This document shows, one piece after another, positions 3,069 through 18,373 of a stretch of DNA of 37,953 bases. The notes beneath the pieces are model-generated. The model saw nothing but the letters and a program-made list of their open reading frames with translations, had not been told where the DNA came from and did not search any database. Source of the stretch: Hyphomonadaceae bacterium (GTDB taxonomy: Bacteria > Pseudomonadota > Alphaproteobacteria > Caulobacterales > Hyphomonadaceae). The translations under genes were made by a program, and so were the position numbers. Position 1 is the first letter of the stretch. Each line of letters begins with the position of its first letter. The stretch covers positions 1 through 37,953 of the forward strand of contig JAUYPV010000061.1 of NCBI GenBank assembly GCA_030697555.1, given 5' to 3'.

Positions 3069-3227
3069 GGCTTGAAGTCCTCGAGTTTTATGTTCGGGCT
3101 CAACAGGAATTGTTCGCCTCATCTCTAAGCGTGGCGCGATGGTTGGGAAAGGGCACTGGCGTTTCGAGGCACGCCTGCGCTATATCGGGCGCGGGTAGGG
3201 GCAAGGGATTCCAGTCGGGAGCCGTGT

Positions 3228-5063
3228 ATGAGGGCGATCTTTGGCGTTGGCATGATGCTGGCGGTGCTGGCGGCGTGCACGGGCGAGGCCAAGGGGCCGA
3301 CGCCGGAAGTCATCGCGAAAACCAGCGCAGAACTCACGGCCTACCTCGACGCGGAGTACGAGGAAGAGCTGCTGATGAACCCGGAGGAGATGACCTCGCA
3401 GGGACGCAAGGACAAATACGGCGAGCTGGACGACCGCAGCGAGGCGGGGCTCGACAAGGAACTGGAGTGGCGCAAGCAGTCGGTCGCCGACATGAAGGCG
3501 AAGTTCGACCCGGCGAACCTCAATGAAGACGCCAAGGTGTCCTACGACATCTGGTCGCTGGAGCTGGAGCGGGCGGAGAAGTCGACGCAGTACCGCCGTC
3601 ATCGCTACATCTTCGGACGCAATGGGGCGCACACGGGCCTGCCCAACTTCCTGATCAACTTCCATCGTGTCGACGAGAAGGCAGACATGGAGGCGTATGT
3701 GTCGCGTGTCGCGGCGGTGGGCACGGCGATCGACCAGTTGCTCGAGCGGGCGAAGCTCGCAGCGGCGGATGGCATCCGCATGCCGGCGTTCGCTTACGAC
3801 CAGACGACGTCGGAAGTGAAGCGTGTGACCGCGGGCTTCCCGTTCGACACCAATGTCAGGAAGCCCAGCGCGCTGTTCGAGGATGCCAGCAAGAAGATCG
3901 ATGCGCTGGTCACTGCGAGCAAGGCGACGCCGGAGGAAGCCAACCAGCTGAAGCTGGACGTCGCCAAGGCGATGAAGGAGCAGATGAAGCCGGCCTATGA
4001 CCGGCTGGCTGCCTGGGTCGCCGAAGACAAGAAGAATGTGGACGCCGAACCGAAGGGCGTGAGCGCGCTGCCGGACGGGACGAACTACTACAACACCGCG
4101 CTGTTCCTGCAGACCACCACCACGATGACGGCGGACGAGATCCACGAGCTTGGTCTCAGCGAAGTCGCACGTATCCGTGGCGAGATGGAGAAGGTGAAGG
4201 AAGAGGCGGGCTTCAAGGGCACGCTGGAAGAGTTCTTCGTCTTCATGCGCACGGACAAGCGCTTCTACCTGCCCAACAACGACGCGGGCGCGCAGGAATA
4301 CATCAAGCTGGCCGACGGATATCTGACCGGCATGAAGGCGAAGCTGCCGGAATATTTCGGTATCCTGCCGAAGGCTGACCTGGAAGTGCGCCGCGTCGAA
4401 GCTTTCCGGGAAGAGCCGGGTGGCGCGCAGCACTATAATTCGGGCACGCCGGATGGGTCGCGGCCGGGGGTGTTCTACGCGCACCTGTCCGACATGAACG
4501 CGATGCCGACCTACCAGCTCGAGAACATCGCCTACCATGAGGGCCTGCCGGGCCATCACATGCAGATCTCGATCGCGCAGGAGCTGACCGGCGTGCCGAA
4601 ATTCCGCACCCAGTATGGCTACACGGCCTATTCCGAAGGCTGGGGTCTTTATTCGGAAGCGCTGGCGAAGGAGATGGGGTTCGACGTCGATCCCTATAAC
4701 AATTTCGGCAGGCTTTCCGGCGAGATCTGGCGCGCCATCCGACTGGTGGTCGATACCGGCATCCATTCGAAAGGGTGGAGCGAGGCGAAGGCCGTGGAAT
4801 ATTTCATGGCCAACTCCGCGCAGCCGGAAGCGGCGATCCGTTCGGAGATCAAGCGCTACATCACCACGCCGGGGCAGGCGACCTGCTACAAGATCGGCAT
4901 GATCCGCATCCAGAAGCTGCGCGACGAAGCGCGGGCGGCGCTGGGCGACAAGTTCGACTATCGCACCTTCCACGACACCGTGCTGGGCGGCGGCTCGCTG
5001 CCGATCCCGGTGCTGGAGGCGAAGGTGCATCGCTGGATCGATGCGCAGAAATTGGCGAATTGA
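3228..5063 (+). CDS. DUF885 lipoprotein, putative metallopeptidase (copy 1 of 3)
   Basis: A 611-residue envelope protein. The signal peptide ends in the lipobox VLAAC, so the mature protein is probably lipid-anchored. The rest is a single DUF885 domain. Its hallmark is YHEGLPGHHMQ, with His437, Glu438 and the His443-His444 pair. Members of this family are treated as zinc peptidase-like and structurally related to M2/M3-type enzymes; activity here is inferred. Other conserved landmarks are NFLINFHRVD, AFREEPGGAQHY, YSEGWGLYSEALAKEMG and the C-terminal CYKIGMIRIQ. The ATG at 3228 gives a clean signal peptide. It is followed by a palindromic element and two paralogues of almost equal length. Confidence 0.9.
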   Translation: MRAIFGVGMMLAVLAACTGEAKGPTPEVIAKTSAELTAYLDAEYEEELLMNPEEMTSQGRKDKYGELDDRSEAGLDKELEWRKQSVADMKAKFDPANLNEDAKVSYDIWSLELERAEKSTQYRRHRYIFGRNGAHTGLPNFLINFHRVDEKADMEAYVSRVAAVGTAIDQLLERAKLAAADGIRMPAFAYDQTTSEVKRVTAGFPFDTNVRKPSALFEDASKKIDALVTASKATPEEANQLKLDVAKAMKEQMKPAYDRLAAWVAEDKKNVDAEPKGVSALPDGTNYYNTALFLQTTTTMTADEIHELGLSEVARIRGEMEKVKEEAGFKGTLEEFFVFMRTDKRFYLPNNDAGAQEYIKLADGYLTGMKAKLPEYFGILPKADLEVRRVEAFREEPGGAQHYNSGTPDGSRPGVFYAHLSDMNAMPTYQLENIAYHEGLPGHHMQISIAQELTGVPKFRTQYGYTAYSEGWGLYSEALAKEMGFDVDPYNNFGRLSGEIWRAIRLVVDTGIHSKGWSEAKAVEYFMANSAQPEAAIRSEIKRYITTPGQATCYKIGMIRIQKLRDEARAALGDKFDYRTFHDTVLGGGSLPIPVLEAKVHRWIDAQKLAN

Positions 5064-5167
5064 GGAGCGCCGGGGTGAGATGCGACAGCATCGAACGCCC
5101 GGCACGCGGGCGAAAGCCCGCATCGGTCAACGTGGAGAGGTCTTGCCGGGCAGGCGCCCGGCGCTCC
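5064..5167. repeat. Mosaic palindromic element after DUF885 copy 1
   Basis: It starts directly after the stop codon with GGAGCGCCGGG (5065-5075) and ends with the intact right arm at 5144-5167, which is identical to the right arm of the element after copy 2. The left arm is broken by two small hairpins: GATGC/GCATC (5079-5092, loop GACA) and GCGGGC/GCCCGC (5106-5121, loop GAAA). After it comes a leader containing GGTCAGGAG that serves as ribosome binding site for the next gene. Confidence 0.7.
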
Positions 5168-5191
5168 CCAAGGTTAGGTCAGGAGCTTAGG

Positions 5192-7024
5192 ATGCGTCTG
5201 TTTCTTGTCGCCGGCGTTGCTGCGGCGTTTCTGATCTCTGCTTGCGAGCCGGCCAAGCCGGCGGCGCCCACGGCGGAGGCTATCGCGGCGGAGAGCAAGA
5301 AGCTCACCGACTATCTCAATGCCGAGTTCGAGGAAGAACTGGCGATGAGCCCGATGTCGCTGACGCAACTTGGGCGGAAAGAGCAGTACGACAAGCTCGA
5401 TGATTTCTCAGAAGCGGATGTCCAGAAGCAGCTTGAATGGCGCAAGCAGTCCGTCGCCGACATGAAGGCGCAGCTGAATCCCGCGGCGCTGAACGACGAT
5501 GCGCAGACGTCGTGGGATATCTGGGATCTTGAGCTGCAGCGGTCCGAAGCGCGTGCGAAGTGGCTGCGCCACGCCTATGTGTTCGGCTATGGCGGGCCGC
5601 ACACGGATATTCCGAACTTCCTGATCACCTATCACAAGGTAGACGAAGCCAAGGACATGGACGCTTACATCGCGCGCCTTGGCGAGCTGGGACGGGCGAT
5701 GGATCAGTTGACCGAGCGGGCGAAGCTGGCTGCGGCCGACGGGATCCGTACGCCGAAATTCGGCTATGAGCGCACGGCCACGGAAGCCGAGGGCATGATC
5801 ACCGGCGCGCCGTTCGGCAAGGGTCCGGATTCGCCACTGTGGGCGGACGTGAAGGAGAAGATCGGCGCGCTACTGGCGGACGACAGGGCCAACAGCGAGC
5901 AGGCTGTTACGTGGGAAGCGGCGGCCAAGGCCGCGCTGACCGACAAGGTGAAGCCATCCTACGAGCGGCTGATCGCGTGGTTGAAGGAAGACATGGGACA
6001 AGCGCCTTCGGGCAAGGTGGGCGCGCTGACGCTGCCCAACGGGGCCGACTGGTACAATGTATCGCTGGAGCTGCAGACCACGACCAAGATGACCGCTGAC
6101 GATATCCATGAGCTTGGCCTCAAGGAGGTCGCGCGCATCCAGGCGGAGATGGACAAGATCCGCGTGTCGACCGGGTTCAAGGGCGACGCCAAGGCGTTCT
6201 TCGAGTTCATGCGCACGGACAAGCAGTTCTACCTGCCGAACACGGATGCGGGCCGCGCCGAGTACATAAGACAAGCCGAGGGCTATCTCACCGCGATGCA
6301 AGCCAAGCTGCCGGAGTATTTCGGACGGTTGCCGAAGGCGTCGCTAGTCGTGAAACGCGTCGAGGCCTTCCGCGAGGCGCCCGGCGGTGCGGCGCACTAT
6401 TTCCGTCCGACGCCGGACGGCAAGCAGCCGGGCATCTTCTATGCGCACCTGGTGGACATGAGCGCGGTGTCCGTGTGGGCGCTGGAGAGCCTCGCCTATC
6501 ACGAGGGCGTGCCGGGCCATCACATGCAGATCGCCATCCAGAACGAGCTAACGGATATCCCGCTGTTCCGTACCCAATATGGCTACGGCTCGTACATCGA
6601 AGGGTGGGGCCTCTATGCCGAGGACCTCGGCAAGGAGATGGGCTTCTTCACCGACCCCTACAATGATTTCGGCCGGCTCTCGTCCGAGCTGTGGCGTGCG
6701 GTGCGGCTGGTGGTCGACACCGGGCTGCATGCGAAGGGCTGGACGGAAGAGGAAGCAGTCGCCTGGGCGCTCGCCAACTCACCGCGGCCGGAATCTTCGG
6801 TGCGCTCGGAAGTGCGGCGCTTCCTGATGTGGCCGGGGCAGGCGACGACCTACAAGATCGGGATGCTGAAGATCCAGTCGCTGCGCGACCAGGCGAAGGC
6901 GGAACTCGGCGACAAGTTCGACTGGAAGAGCTTCCACGACACGGTGATTGGCGGCGGGTCCATGCCGCTGCCTGTGCTGGAGAAGCGCATTGGGGCGTGG
7001 ATCAGGACACAGAAGGCCGGTTAG
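5192..7024 (+). CDS. DUF885 lipoprotein, putative metallopeptidase (copy 2 of 3)
   Basis: A 610-residue paralogue of the gene upstream. The ATG at 5192 is preceded by CAGGAG and starts MRLFLVAGVAAAFLISAC, a lipoprotein signal with lipobox ISAC. The same frame is open far upstream, to 4775, but that stretch overlaps copy 1 and is not coding. The motif YHEGVPGHHMQ keeps His437, Glu438 and the His443-His444 pair at exactly the copy 1 numbering. EAFREAPGGAAHYFRPTPDG and YIEGWGLYAEDLGKEMG replace the copy 1 equivalents, so pocket residues near the site differ. All recognised catalytic positions are kept, so it is not a decayed copy. Confidence 0.9.
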   Translation: MRLFLVAGVAAAFLISACEPAKPAAPTAEAIAAESKKLTDYLNAEFEEELAMSPMSLTQLGRKEQYDKLDDFSEADVQKQLEWRKQSVADMKAQLNPAALNDDAQTSWDIWDLELQRSEARAKWLRHAYVFGYGGPHTDIPNFLITYHKVDEAKDMDAYIARLGELGRAMDQLTERAKLAAADGIRTPKFGYERTATEAEGMITGAPFGKGPDSPLWADVKEKIGALLADDRANSEQAVTWEAAAKAALTDKVKPSYERLIAWLKEDMGQAPSGKVGALTLPNGADWYNVSLELQTTTKMTADDIHELGLKEVARIQAEMDKIRVSTGFKGDAKAFFEFMRTDKQFYLPNTDAGRAEYIRQAEGYLTAMQAKLPEYFGRLPKASLVVKRVEAFREAPGGAAHYFRPTPDGKQPGIFYAHLVDMSAVSVWALESLAYHEGVPGHHMQIAIQNELTDIPLFRTQYGYGSYIEGWGLYAEDLGKEMGFFTDPYNDFGRLSSELWRAVRLVVDTGLHAKGWTEEEAVAWALANSPRPESSVRSEVRRFLMWPGQATTYKIGMLKIQSLRDQAKAELGDKFDWKSFHDTVIGGGSMPLPVLEKRIGAWIRTQKAG

Positions 7025-7025
7025 A

Positions 7026-7112
7026 GGAGCGCCGGGCGCCTGCCCGGCAGGCGGAGCGAAGCTCCGCATTCTGTTCGTTGAGAGGTTCTGCCGGGCAGGC
7101 GCCCGGCGCTCC
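7026..7112. repeat. Perfect 24-bp inverted repeat after DUF885 copy 2
   Basis: The arms at 7026-7049 and 7089-7112 are perfectly complementary over 24 bases; the right arm begins TGCCGGGCAGGCGCCCGG. Between them is an inner perfect hairpin, GCGGAGC/GCTCCGC (7051-7067, loop GAA). It begins two bases after the stop codon. The right arm matches the one at 5144-5167. The following leader (GAGGCTAGGTCAGGAG) closely matches the leader of copy 2. Confidence 0.85.
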
Positions 7113-7137
7113 ACGAGGCTAGGTCAGGAGTTTTCTC

Positions 7138-8979
7138 ATGAGACTGATGTTCATGGTCGCCGTGGCGGCACTTGCCGTGGCCTGCAGCCCATCAGCGAAG
7201 ACCGAGGCTATTACGCCCGAAATTGTCGCGAAGGCGAGCGCGGACCTTACGGCCTATCTCGATGCGGAGTTCGAGGAGGAGTTGGAGTTGAGCCCCATCT
7301 CGCTCACCTTCCTCGGCCGCAAGGAGCAGTACGACAAGCTGGACGAGATGACCGACGCCGCGCTTGACCGCGACCTTGACTGGCGCCGGACAAGCGTCGC
7401 CGAGATGAAGGCCAAGTTCGATCCGGCGAAGCTCGACGAGGAGTCGAAGACCTCGTTCGAGACGTGGGCCCTGCAGCTCGACATGGACGAGAAGGCGGCG
7501 CAGTTCCGCCGCCAGCCCTATGTGTTCGTCAAGGACGGGCCGCACGTCTTCCTGCCGAACTTCATGATCAACTTCCATCGTGTCGATGAGAAGGCCGACA
7601 TGGAGGCCTATGTGGCGCGCTTGTCGGCGCTGGCCACGGCGATGGATCAGTCGCTGGGGAATGCGAAGCTGGCGGCAGCCGATGGCAATCGCGCTCCGCG
7701 CTTCTCCTATGACCAGGCGATCCAGGAAGCGAAGAACGTCATCACCGGCGCGCCGTTCGGTTCCGGCAAGGACTCACCGCTGTTCGCGGACGCCAAGGCG
7801 AAGATCAAGGCGCTGCAGGATGGCGGCAAGGTTACCGCGGAAGAGGCCAAGGCGCTGACGGATGGCGCGGCGGCGGCGCTCACGGGCAAGGTGAAGCCGG
7901 CTTACGAGCAGGTGATCGCGTGGCTGGAAAGCGACAAGGCCAACACGCCGGCGGAAGCGAAGGGCGTTGCAACGCTGAAGGACGGCGTCAACTACTACAA
8001 CGCGCAGCTTGAGATACAGACGACGACCAAACTGACGGCCGACGAGATCCACGAGATCGGCGTCAAGGAAGTCGCGCGCATCCAGGGTGAGATGGAGAAG
8101 ATAAAGGAGCAGGTCGGCTTCAAGGGCGACCTCAAGGCCTTCTTCGCCTTGATGCGCACCTCGCCGAAGTTCCAGCTTCCCAACAACGACGCCGGCCGCG
8201 CGCAGTACATCAAGATGTCCGAGGACTATCTCGGGACGATGCAGGCGAAGCTGCCGGAATATTTCGGCATCCTGCCGAAGGCTGGACTAGTGGTGAAACG
8301 GGTCGAGGCCTTCAGGGAAGAGCCGGGCGGCGCGCAGCACTATTTCCCGGGCACGCCGGACGGCTCACGGTCAGGTATCTTTTACGCCCACCTAAGCGAC
8401 ATGAAGGCGATGCCGACCTACACGCTGGAAGCTATCGCCTATCATGAGGGCGTTCCGGGGCATCACTTGCAGATTTCCATCGCGCAGGAGCTGAAAGGCA
8501 TTCCGCAATTCCGCACGCAGTACGGCTACACGGCATACCAGGAAGGCTGGGGGCTCTATTCCGAGGCGTTGTCCAAGGACATGGGGTTCTACACGGATCC
8601 CTATTCAGACTTCGGGCGGCTGAGCGCCGAGATCTGGCGCGCGGTGCGCCTGGTGGTCGACACCGGCATCCACTCCAAGGGCTGGACCGAGGAACAGGCG
8701 GTTCAGTACTTCCTCGACAACTCGGCCGTTGCGGACGGCGCGGTGCGGTCTGAAGTGCGCCGCTACTTCGTGTGGCCGGGACAGGCGACCTGCTACAAGA
8801 TCGGCATGCTGAAGATCCAGGAACTGCGCGGGCTTGCTCAACAAGAGCTTGGTGACAAGTTCGACTTTCGCGCCTTCCACGACACGGTGCTGGGCGGCGG
8901 CGCACTGCCACTTTCCGTGCTCGAGACGCGGGTGAAGCGCTGGATCGAAACGGTGAAGACGCCGGTTGCGGCGGGTTGA
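7138..8979 (+). CDS. DUF885 lipoprotein, putative metallopeptidase (copy 3 of 3)
   Basis: A 613-residue member of the tandem family. The N-terminus MRLMFMVAVAALAVAC is a lipoprotein signal with lipobox AVAC. The domain hallmark YHEGVPGHHLQ is present with His436 and Glu437. It is closer by eye to copy 1 than copy 2 in the stretches NFMINFHRVDEKADMEAYV and AFREEPGGAQHYFPGTPDGS, and closer to copy 2 in ITGAPFG.GKDSPL. Such mosaic likeness would fit repeated duplication with gene conversion, which is inference. The ribosome site TCAGGAG stands before the ATG at 7138. The gene ends in a third, different palindromic element. Confidence 0.9.
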   Translation: MRLMFMVAVAALAVACSPSAKTEAITPEIVAKASADLTAYLDAEFEEELELSPISLTFLGRKEQYDKLDEMTDAALDRDLDWRRTSVAEMKAKFDPAKLDEESKTSFETWALQLDMDEKAAQFRRQPYVFVKDGPHVFLPNFMINFHRVDEKADMEAYVARLSALATAMDQSLGNAKLAAADGNRAPRFSYDQAIQEAKNVITGAPFGSGKDSPLFADAKAKIKALQDGGKVTAEEAKALTDGAAAALTGKVKPAYEQVIAWLESDKANTPAEAKGVATLKDGVNYYNAQLEIQTTTKLTADEIHEIGVKEVARIQGEMEKIKEQVGFKGDLKAFFALMRTSPKFQLPNNDAGRAQYIKMSEDYLGTMQAKLPEYFGILPKAGLVVKRVEAFREEPGGAQHYFPGTPDGSRSGIFYAHLSDMKAMPTYTLEAIAYHEGVPGHHLQISIAQELKGIPQFRTQYGYTAYQEGWGLYSEALSKDMGFYTDPYSDFGRLSAEIWRAVRLVVDTGIHSKGWTEEQAVQYFLDNSAVADGAVRSEVRRYFVWPGQATCYKIGMLKIQELRGLAQQELGDKFDFRAFHDTVLGGGALPLSVLETRVKRWIETVKTPVAAG

Positions 8980-8986
8980 TACAGGC

Positions 8987-9138
8987 AACCTCCCCTTGGA
9001 AAGGGGAGGTCAGCTTTTGCGGAGCAAAAGATGGGTGGGGATCACTTCGTCCCGCACCCGCAGATAAAAGTGATCCCCACCCGTCGCTAGCGTCGCCTTC
9101 GGCTCGCATGCTCCGACCTCCCCTTTCCAAGGGGAGGC
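8987..9138. repeat. Nested palindromic element between convergent genes
   Basis: The element has four nested parts. A perfect hairpin, ACCTCCCCTT/AAGGGGAGGT, is at 8988-9010. A hairpin CTTTTGC/GCAAAAG follows at 9014-9030. Long arms GGGTGGGGATCACTT at 9033-9047 pair perfectly with 9068-9082. A last hairpin, CCTCCCCTT/AAGGGGAGG, is at 9117-9137. It fills the gap between DUF885 copy 3 and the converging crotonase gene. The plan (outer CCTCCC hairpins, inner hairpins, central long arms) is the same as in the element inside uvrC, although the sequence differs. Confidence 0.85.
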
Positions 9139-16231: not shown

Positions 16232-18373
16232 TCAGCCGCCGTGAAAGTGATCGTAAATTCGCTGCGCGAGCGCGGCGTTGACGCCTTCGACGGTCTGCAG
16301 GTCTTCGGGCGTGGCGCGGCTGACGCCCTTGGCTGAGCCGAAGCGGTGGAGCAGGGCCTTCTTGCGTCGGACGCCGATGCCGGGAATTTCGTCCAGCGGG
16401 TTCTGGTTTAGCATCGCGGCCGAGCGCTTGGCGCGGTGAGTGCCTATCGCCCAGCGGTGCGCTTCGTCGCGGAGGCGCTGGAGATAGTAGAGCGCGGGAT
16501 CGTTGCCGGGCAGCATGAAGGGCGCGCGGTTGGGACGGAAGAACTGCTCGCGGCCGGCATTGCGGTCAGGCCCCTTGGCGATGGCCACCAGATTCAATTC
16601 GCCTTCGGTGAAACCTAGCTGGGCGATGGTTTCGCGTACGGCGCTGAGTTGCCCGAGACCGCCGTCGATCAGCACAAGATCGGGCCAGGTTTCGGGGCGG
16701 CGCTTGCCTCCCTCAGTCGAAGACTGAGGGAGGTGGCTCGGCGGCGAAGCCGACGAGACGGAGGGGGAGATCGCAACGGCGGGATTCTCGGAGAGAGCCC
16801 CCTCCGTCTGCGCGTCCTTCGGACCCGCATCCACCTCCCCCGGTCTTTCGGCCGGTGGAGGCAAGGCACCTGTGTCTGAGCTGGGATGGGCAGTGTTCAG
16901 CTCTTCCTGTTCCTTTTTCAGTCTCCCGAACCGTCGGCGCATCACTTCGCGCATCATGCCGTAGTCGTCGCCCGGCTCGAGCTCTTCGTCCTTGATGTTG
17001 AACTTGCGGTAGGCGTTCTTCTCCCAGCCTTCGGGGCCTGCGACGATCATTCCGCCGACCGCGTTCGTGCCCATGATGTGCGAGTTGTCGTAGACCTCGA
17101 TGCGTTTCGGCGGTTCGGGCAGGCCGAAGACTTTCTGCACGGCGGCGAGGATCTTTTCCTGGCTCTGCGTCTCGGCGAGCTTGCGGCCGAGGGCTTCGCG
17201 CGCGTTGAGCAGGGCCTGGCCGACAATGCCGCGCTTCTCGCCACGCTGGGGCGTGCGGATGTCGACCTTGTGGTCGGCCTTGAGTTCGAGTGCGTCGGTC
17301 ATCAGCTCGGCCTCCTCAATGTCGTGGCTGAGGAGGATCATCTTGGGCACGGGCTTGTCGTCGTAGAACTGAGCGAGGAAGGCGGTGAGCACCTGTTCGG
17401 ACGTGTCGTCGCGATCGTGCCTGGGATACCAGACTGTGGCGCCCCAGTTCTGGCCGGCGCGGAAGAAGAAGGCCTGCACGGCAGACTGGCCTGCGTCGCT
17501 GTGGATGGCGAACACGTCGGCTTCGACCAGGCCATCCGGATTGACGGACTGCGACTGGCGGATGGAGGAGAGGGCGCGGATGCGGTCGCGCAGGCGGGCG
17601 GCGCGCTCATAGTCCATGTTTTGCGCGGCGCGCTCCATCTGCTGGGCGAGTTGTTCCTGCAGCGTTTCGGCATCGCCGCTGAGGAAGCGTTCTGCCTCCC
17701 GCACGAGGTCGCGGTATTCGTCGAGCGGGATCAGTCCAACGCACGGCGCTGAGCAGCGGCCCATCTGATGAAGCATGCAGGGGCGCGAGCGCGTGGCGTA
17801 GATATTGTCGGTGCAGGTGCGGAGGAGGAAGGCCTTCTGCAGCGTGTCGAGCGTGGCATCGACTGCGCCGGCGGAAGCGAACGGGCCGAAATACTGCCCC
17901 TTGATGCGTTTGGCGCCGCGGTGCTTGAGCGCCTGCGGCGCCTCGTGATCTTCGCGGATGAGGATATGCGGGAAGGACTTGTCATCGCGCAGGATGATAT
18001 TGAAGCGCGGCTTCAGCTTCTTGATGAGGTTGGCTTCGAGCAGCAGCGCCTCGGTCTCGCTGGCCGTCACCACGAACTCCATGGAGCGGGTGAGCGAGAT
18101 CATGCGCGCGATGCGCTGGGTGTGGCCGCCGATCTTGGCGTAGCTGCCGACCCGCGCCTTCAGGTTGCGCGCCTTGCCGACATAGAGCAGCTCGGCGTTC
18201 TCGCCGAACATGCGATAGACGCCCGGCTTGCCGGGCAGGCGGCGGAGATTGTCCTTGATGACGTCCGGCCCATAGAGCTTCGCGCCCGGCATCGCGGGGG
18301 CGTCAGGCTCGTCCGGCGAGGCGATTTCCTCGATTTCCGGCTCTTCCGTCTCTGGGTTTTCCGGCGACTCCAT
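16232..18373 (-). CDS. uvrC: Excinuclease ABC subunit C
   Basis: A 713-residue nuclease subunit that makes both incisions in nucleotide excision repair with UvrB. In order: an acidic N-terminal extension (1-35); the GIY-YIG domain (about 48-130, Tyr53 in GVYRM and Tyr64 in LLYVGKA); Cys-rich segment near 190; UVR helix-hairpin for UvrB contact (about 230-260); RNase H-like nuclease domain with Asp429 (VYDNSH) and Asp570 (LVLIDGG); THRAKRS; and C-terminal helix-hairpin-helix pair to the end. Between Asp429 and Asp570, residues about 502-557 are a low-complexity Pro/Ser/Ala-rich insert encoded by a palindromic repeat, making the protein longer than usual. The ATG at 18373 is chosen because upstream codons lack family likeness. 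It is followed by the GrpB-family gene. Confidence 0.95.
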   Translation of the reverse strand: MESPENPETEEPEIEEIASPDEPDAPAMPGAKLYGPDVIKDNLRRLPGKPGVYRMFGENAELLYVGKARNLKARVGSYAKIGGHTQRIARMISLTRSMEFVVTASETEALLLEANLIKKLKPRFNIILRDDKSFPHILIREDHEAPQALKHRGAKRIKGQYFGPFASAGAVDATLDTLQKAFLLRTCTDNIYATRSRPCMLHQMGRCSAPCVGLIPLDEYRDLVREAERFLSGDAETLQEQLAQQMERAAQNMDYERAARLRDRIRALSSIRQSQSVNPDGLVEADVFAIHSDAGQSAVQAFFFRAGQNWGATVWYPRHDRDDTSEQVLTAFLAQFYDDKPVPKMILLSHDIEEAELMTDALELKADHKVDIRTPQRGEKRGIVGQALLNAREALGRKLAETQSQEKILAAVQKVFGLPEPPKRIEVYDNSHIMGTNAVGGMIVAGPEGWEKNAYRKFNIKDEELEPGDDYGMMREVMRRRFGRLKKEQEELNTAHPSSDTGALPPPAERPGEVDAGPKDAQTEGALSENPAVAISPSVSSASPPSHLPQSSTEGGKRRPETWPDLVLIDGGLGQLSAVRETIAQLGFTEGELNLVAIAKGPDRNAGREQFFRPNRAPFMLPGNDPALYYLQRLRDEAHRWAIGTHRAKRSAAMLNQNPLDEIPGIGVRRKKALLHRFGSAKGVSRATPEDLQTVEGVNAALAQRIYDHFHGG
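16703..16866. repeat. In-frame nested palindromic repeat inside uvrC
   Basis: Perfect 12-bp stem CCTCCCTCAGTC at 16707-16718 with 16722-16733 (loop GAA). Inner small hairpin around GGCGAAGCC (16743-16751). Central arms AGACGGAGGGGG at 16756-16767 pair perfectly with 16798-16809. A GTCC-TTC-GGAC hairpin is at 16813-16823. An outer hairpin CCTCCCCCGG/CCGGTGGAGG at 16834-16861 has one mismatch. Left and right halves are also imperfect reverse complements of each other. It is read through on the minus strand without a stop, giving about 55 residues of UvrC. Confidence 0.88.

Follow-up and report, generated by a model that had tools for sequence, protein, structure and literature searches.

A palindromic insert within uvrC

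The window (the whole 37,953-nucleotide stretch of Hyphomonadaceae DNA that we analyzed) contains a uvrC gene whose coding sequence includes a 164-bp palindromic stretch (Table 1). The gene's identity is clear: a 716-aa version of the protein matches UvrC_RNaseH_dom (1.8e-48) and four more Pfam domains above the cut-off. The insert has REVMRRRF on one side and WPDLVLIDGG on the other, and it encodes residues 503-557, approximately. The preliminary description of this DNA placed it between the two catalytic aspartates, D429 and D570. These residues do bracket the insert, and both are invariant in an alignment of 18 sequences (where they are D403 and D544).

An inverted-repeat search also bore out the description of nested stems within an open uvrC frame. 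Two stems of 12 bp are perfect (16707-16718/16722-16733 and 16756-16767/16798-16809), a further two nested arms are longer but imperfect (16703-16721/16847-16865, 79%; 16720-16736/16831-16847, 88%), and the reading frame is open across the entire insert. When folded as the coding strand, the insert reaches -102 kcal/mol, versus a mean of -65.6 for synonymous recodings (z = -5.2; 0 of 500 recodings were as low). The longest perfect arm is weaker as a sole statistic, as 6 of 500 recodings reached 12. A scan of the window against Rfam gave no matches at the gathering score. We conclude that the in-frame palindromic insert is confirmed as real and beyond chance.

Table 1. Features of the window that are discussed in the text.
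Feature	Position	Strand	Evidence and remarks
uvrC coding region	16232..18373	-	713 aa from the ATG at 18373 (MESPEN; predicted start); open frame
Palindromic insert in uvrC: unit, spacer, inverted unit	16703..16866	.	Inverted repeats; unit model matches; synonymous-shuffle test
Unit A: hairpin 1, hairpin 2, G-rich tail ending GACGGAGGGGG	16703..16767	+	nhmmer 2.7e-15 (model built partly from this copy); copies elsewhere; covarying hairpins
Spacer between the tails, 30 bp; gene-bearing copies have the DUF559 gene here	16768..16797	.	Position; gene-bearing relatives
Second unit A, inverted, tail facing the spacer	16798..16865	-	nhmmer 1.1e-10 (model built partly from this copy)
Gene-less intergenic element of family B, same plan as the insert	8988..9138	.	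Inverted repeats; sequence comparison

Unit A and its copies in related genomes

Palindromic repeats are abundant between bacterial genes. The unit that makes up the insert, unit A, is about 65 bp long and has two hairpins. Its consensus runs CTTGCCTCC, hairpin 1, GGGGGAGGTGGATC, hairpin 2, and the tail GAGACGGAGGGGG, with stems of 12 and 8 bp. Across 32 aligned copies, 13 of the 20 base pairs were altered on both sides, and the covariation score was 0.315, as compared to 0.090 for shuffled alignments and at most 0.060 for slid versions. So the hairpins are kept while the letters change. The tail is similar in sequence to the right arm of hairpin 1, and we speculate that the left arm might pair with either one, with a mismatch that would be visible to a Vsr-like enzyme.

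The preliminary description treated the element as a repeat, and it does recur in the genome. A 171-bp query against the window's own genome (G000; 4.98 Mb in 176 contigs) gave 33 rows at E ≤ 1, counting both strands. At E ≤ 1e-5, unit A matched seven distinct places outside of uvrC, two of which are the ends of one gene-bearing copy (see below), and one half of the insert has an 88%-identical copy elsewhere in this genome. Unit A was found at E ≤ 1e-5 in 9 of 15 genomes of the genus, with as many as 85 rows in G008 (both strands counted), while the sole match in G005 is uvrC itself. The named relatives of the window's genome are mostly Hyphomonadaceae metagenome assemblies. In G008 and other drafts, many unit copies lie near contig ends (L230-L269); because these repeats probably break the draft assemblies, the copy numbers are likely to be lower bounds.

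The intergenic copies of family A are mostly divergent pairs, and among the copies that we read, the short convergent form occurs only in uvrC. The insert had been said to share its plan with the intergenic element at the other site in Table 1. This holds for the arrangement, with hairpins outside and tails inward, but the two belong to different sequence families. Two relatives of the family B element (87% and 85%), one on either side, flank a DUF559 match in the same genome (G000:C153, L289). We also note that positions 3180-8979 of the window hold three tandem homologous gene copies of about 1.95 kb, whose segments are 64-81% alike to the reference copy, and that a 25-bp palindrome is repeated between them.

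DUF559 genes lie between inverted units

At four places (G000:C21, G001:C3, G002:C2, and G002:C23), inverted units converge on an open reading frame of about 110 amino acids that belongs to DUF559 (PF04480, 1e-33 for the G000 copy). At G000:C21, the gene lies within unit A ends, so the insert shares its ends with a gene-bearing element from the same genome. This link to DUF559 was not seen in the preliminary description, and it is the more unusual part of the finding.

To quantify the symmetry, we took the 350 bp to the left of each DUF559 match and aligned them to the 350 bp on its right, after reverse-complementing the latter. Eight of the 15 genomes in the genus have DUF559 matches, 28 in all, and the flanks scored at least 34 for 23 of these and at least 45 for 20. 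None of 989 random placements in the genus reached 34 (maximum 32), and none of its 28 ParE genes had inverted flanks (scores of 24 or less). DUF559 is present in 28 of 67 genomes across the class. We started from 58 listed matches, removed five from the window's own genome and 13 that were short or partial, and examined the other 40, of which 39 had enough flanking sequence. Here 29 of 39 scored at least 34 and 23 scored at least 45, and 16 of 19 class genomes had at least one DUF559 gene at 34 or above. Among 695 placements that were shifted within the same loci, two reached 34 (maximum 39). Shuffled right flanks scored no more than 34. If we combined a left flank with a right flank from another genome, then 7.4% (class) or 18.2% (genus) of pairs reached 34, and a gene's own right flank outscored every foreign one in 25 of 39 (class) and 10 of 26 (genus) cases, so the repeat types are partly shared between genomes.

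The orientation of the uvrC insert is the common one at DUF559 loci. By a loose pattern, 15 of 25 class loci have the hairpin outside and the tail toward the gene on both sides. Five more are so oriented on their single readable side, three are unreadable, and two (L314 and L337) have a reversed side.

Plasmids carry similar loci. We fetched 14 of the 40 plasmid records with a DUF559 match, and seven of the 14 loci had flank scores of at least 34: Sinorhizobium meliloti pSymB (208), Novosphingobium THN1 (97), Sinorhizobium K101 (92), Sphingomonas parapaucimobilis (65 and 52), A. lipoferum (51), and Deinococcus (41). The seven below 34 are from Azospirillum (three loci), Methylobacterium, Shinella, Picosynechococcus, and E. 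coli. One of the S. parapaucimobilis loci (L376, NZ_CP155753.1, 565-975; the score of 52) places the DUF559 gene and its inverted palindromic flanks between the annotated sufB and sufC genes.

The association is not universal. No inverted flanks were seen at 5 of 28 DUF559 genes in the genus and at 10 of 39 in the class. G008, which is the richest in unit A, has three DUF559 matches, none of them from the type-A subgroup; in G012, we matched unit A but no DUF559 gene (both are draft genomes). In the stretches of G008 that we fetched, neither tblastn nor reading of seven gaps turned up a DUF559 gene between units. As for empty sites or target duplications, G001 and G002 both keep the unit pair near an rsmG-like gene, and the flanks of the insert in uvrC are too diverged for such a comparison. 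At the rsmG-like gene, G002 (L279, G002:C23) has a DUF559 gene and a unit beside the unit pair, and G001 (L254, G001:C2) has the pair only.

Repeat types follow DUF559 subgroups

We labeled the repeat types with patterns that were written after the flanks had been viewed. In the genus, 18 of 26 DUF559 genes could be labeled, and five of these labels rest on one side. On the tree of these genes, the five types require four changes, which is the minimum possible; each of 1000 shuffles required at least seven. With 39 genes from the class added, 30 of 65 genes were labeled, and the seven types require eight changes, versus at least 15 in shuffles. Types A and B each appear in more than one part of this wider tree, which also has many unresolved branchings. 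Repeat type and DUF559 subgroup thus do not pair perfectly. Still, the pairing is strong: subgroups tend to have their own type of unit.

These data bear on whether the insert could be an ordinary REP or REPIN that is moved by a RAYT (a Y1 transposase) or another enzyme, with the DUF559 genes as bystanders in repeat-rich places. Two inverted palindromic units are indeed the plan of a REPIN, RAYT-family genes are present in 4 of the 15 genomes of the genus, and unit A occurs in some genomes that give no DUF559 match. But the five RAYT loci (PF01797) in those four genomes have no unit A beyond a 12-nt match (E = 0.043), so we rejected RAYT as the partner. The lack of such flanks around ParE genes and the correspondence between repeat type and DUF559 subgroup also argue against bystanders, and we consider this explanation unlikely.

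The DUF559 protein is predicted to have a fold like that of Vsr and homing endonucleases. The structural model (pLDDT 85) matches 3hrl (E = 1.6e-7), the catalytic domain of I-Bth0305I (3r3p, 1.6e-4), and, more weakly, Vsr (1vsr, 7e-3); 3hrl and 3r3p were also found by sequence profiles of DUF559. Four acidic residues (E26, D55, E66, and D68) are invariant across 36 sequences. The predicted similarity to Vsr would also fit a protein that is cargo, or a genome-maintenance nuclease that is tied to the repeats (e.g., one that processes hairpins or repairs mismatches in them), rather than their mover. The available portion of PMC12907096 describes Caulobacter VsrA, a DUF559 protein, and links it to a DNA-damage response when a cytosine methylase is missing. 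However, DUF559 genes lie inside symmetric and type-matched ends, and one such element sits between sufB and sufC, which suggests mobility. We view a role as cargo or in maintenance as improbable, somewhat more so than a RAYT-type mover.

History and constraint of the UvrC loop

Of 28 UvrC loci from the family, 27 could be parsed, and we compared their loops. In a clade of 11 species around the window (support 100/99), the loop has 32-120 residues, and outside of the clade, 10 of 16 loops have 8-26 residues. These 10 include G003, G004, and G010, whose loops have just 12-14 residues and no unit, so the insert is absent from these short-loop relatives, a comparison that the preliminary description had proposed. 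Using a unit model that was built partly from the window's own insert, we recognized unit A in 7 of the 11 clade loops (G000, G002, G005, G006, G008, G011, and G012) and in G092, which belongs to a different genus; the remaining 19 loops gave no match. Because G003, G004, and G010 are nearer to the clade than G092 is, or level with it, either two insertions or one insertion and several losses are needed. Within the clade, the loops of G007, G013, and G014 have no recognizable unit, and the loop of G001 has a piece of AcrB.

The folding of whole loops varies as well. The z scores were -3.8 in G000, -5.0 in G008, -3.4 in G005, and -5.3 in G012, and from -0.7 to +0.6 in G014, G006, G011, G002, G007, and G001; this test left out four loops as too short. 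In the broader class, a census with a short-loop query found UvrC in 104 of 109 genomes, with six split matches and a gap of over 50 residues in the window's genome only, although unsplit rows can hide shorter inserts.

We observed two other kinds of long UvrC loops. In G001 (L070:2911-3342), an in-frame piece of AcrB/AcrD/AcrF (PF00873, 3.7e-12) lies where the repeat would be, and the same stretch of protein is also found in L108 (NCEM01000001.1). This is apparently a transporter fragment that was captured by a repair nuclease. In genus g8 (L183, L184, L185, L197, L198, and L205), the loops have 90-170 residues in five of six species and 26 in the sixth, and the UvrC cores of G097 (170) and G099 (26) are almost the same. 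We rejected DUF559 units as the source of the g8 loops: they contain short repeats that recur in those genomes, but few hairpins.

Hyphomicrobium sp. SB8 (L128) has a 90-residue stretch in UvrC that is encoded by a unit, a spacer, and an inverted unit, all of another type. In that genome, 21 further rows match the UvrC element at E ≤ 0.01. Four of the six copies that we inspected are gene-less convergent pairs (L219, L221, L223, and L224), and another, L227, lies on both sides of a DUF559 gene (PF04480, 3.9e-34; score 45). So in two distant lineages, a gene-less element in the UvrC loop and a gene-bearing relative are found in the same genome.

Could the insert be kept because the added peptide changes the activity of UvrC? 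None of the 14 UvrC loops that we inspected in the genus interrupts the frame, unit A recurs in the loop of G092, which short-loop species set apart on the tree, and a different type of unit is present in UvrC of SB8. However, the loop is weakly constrained: across six pairs of species, dN/dS was 0.20-2.58 for the loop versus 0.04-0.11 for the core. Four of the 11 clade species have no recognizable unit. The insert was expected to loop out, and it is indeed modeled as a disordered loop, with pLDDT of 30-41 (model residues 470-529) as compared to 78-94 for the adjoining blocks. Open frames are also expected from composition, which accounts for the 161 of 192 frames that are open in 32 units. 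Given a weakly constrained loop and mostly open frames, an in-frame insertion does not require selection for the peptide, and we regard selection for the peptide as very improbable.

For the same reasons, the suggestion of a peptide-creating family of repeats is not supported, and we saw no convincing in-gene copy besides uvrC. We went through 23 spanning ORFs (at least 80 amino acids on each side; some places are counted twice) by eye and without Pfam. In our judgment, they are spurious frames, antisense frames, or open runs that precede a real gene.

Relation to known repeats

REP/REPIN-RAYT systems (REPtrons) are likewise built from short palindromic units that are often paired in inverted orientation, and they have a dedicated DNA-cutting enzyme encoded between units and many gene-less copies. 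They differ in that the enzyme here is DUF559 (of the Vsr or PD-(D/E)XK type) instead of a Y1 tyrosine transposase, unit A has two hairpins and a G-rich tail with no GTAG in its consensus, and none of the five RAYT (Y1_Tnp) loci of the genus is flanked by unit A beyond the 12-nt match. According to the accessible text of Di Nocera 2013 (PMC3733652), the CGTC-tagged REPs of Alphaproteobacteria form inverted dimers, some within repair genes, and REPs in frame within uvr genes were already published there; these repeats "apparently lack a dedicated transposase". Unit A does not have the 8-9 bp stem starting with AT or the CCA tail described in that text, and its only CGTC lies on the complementary strand of the tail. 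The main text of PMC3733652 does not contain "uvrC" or "DUF".

Rickettsia palindromic elements (RPEs), which we compared by description only, are likewise palindromic repeats that are translated in frame within a gene, and here the repeat is absent from relatives. Unit A is tied to DUF559 genes, a link that the descriptions available to us do not state for RPEs. MITEs are also short, gene-less, and bounded by the inverted ends of a gene-bearing element, but the ends here are multi-hairpin units. The predicted fold of the DUF559 protein resembles Vsr and EDxHD homing endonucleases such as I-Bth0305I, but DUF559 is free-standing here, inside palindromic ends.

Among the matches listed for the open-licence literature, we found no report that joins DUF559 (COG2852/PF04480) to palindromic repeats, and the matches listed for Vsr endonucleases with repeats held nothing on this combination either. 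The part of the RepRanger paper that we could access does not mention RAYT, transposases, or DUF559. The repeats on both sides of the DUF559 genes suggest a family of small mobile elements that we did not find described.

Proposed origin of the insert

In our view, a small mobile element of DUF559 and palindromes probably gave rise to the insert, as a gene-less (MITE-like) copy that entered a flexible linker in UvrC and has drifted since. The element would consist of two inverted palindromic units, each with hairpin 1, then hairpin 2 or a linker, and a G-rich tail. In the gene-bearing form, the units would enclose the DUF559 protein of about 110 amino acids, with its putative Vsr/homing-endonuclease fold. 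We infer that DUF559 mobilizes the element; most likely, the enzyme recognizes its own unit and cuts or nicks the DNA to start copying, and gene-less copies may use the enzyme in trans. The element is best read as working like REPIN/RAYT with an unrelated enzyme, by analogy.

One gene-less copy would have landed in the flexible linker of the RNase H-like domain of UvrC, most simply once, in the ancestor of the 11-species clade. It may have arisen by internal deletion or as a gene-less copy, and its length and frame would have permitted translation. It was probably close to neutral for UvrC, and it may later have drifted, shrunk, or been overwritten in single species.

More tentatively, and at slightly less than even confidence, we suggest that DUF559 proteins are the dedicated mobilizing nucleases of a large undescribed class of palindromic elements that is common in Alphaproteobacteria. 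Each subgroup would move its own unit, gene-bearing and gene-less copies would coexist, and on at least two occasions, gene-less copies would have settled within the linker of UvrC with the frame kept.

In the text available to us, Di Nocera 2013 (PMC3733652) left open what moves the CGTC repeats. A DUF559 nuclease within type-matched palindromic ends is a concrete and testable candidate for the mover of repeats like those described here. If our proposal is true, then these elements would form a second system like REPIN, with an unrelated enzyme of the Vsr/homing type at its core, and a widespread domain of unknown function would gain a role. UvrC would be a core repair nuclease with a single tolerant loop that has absorbed mobile DNA on more than one occasion.
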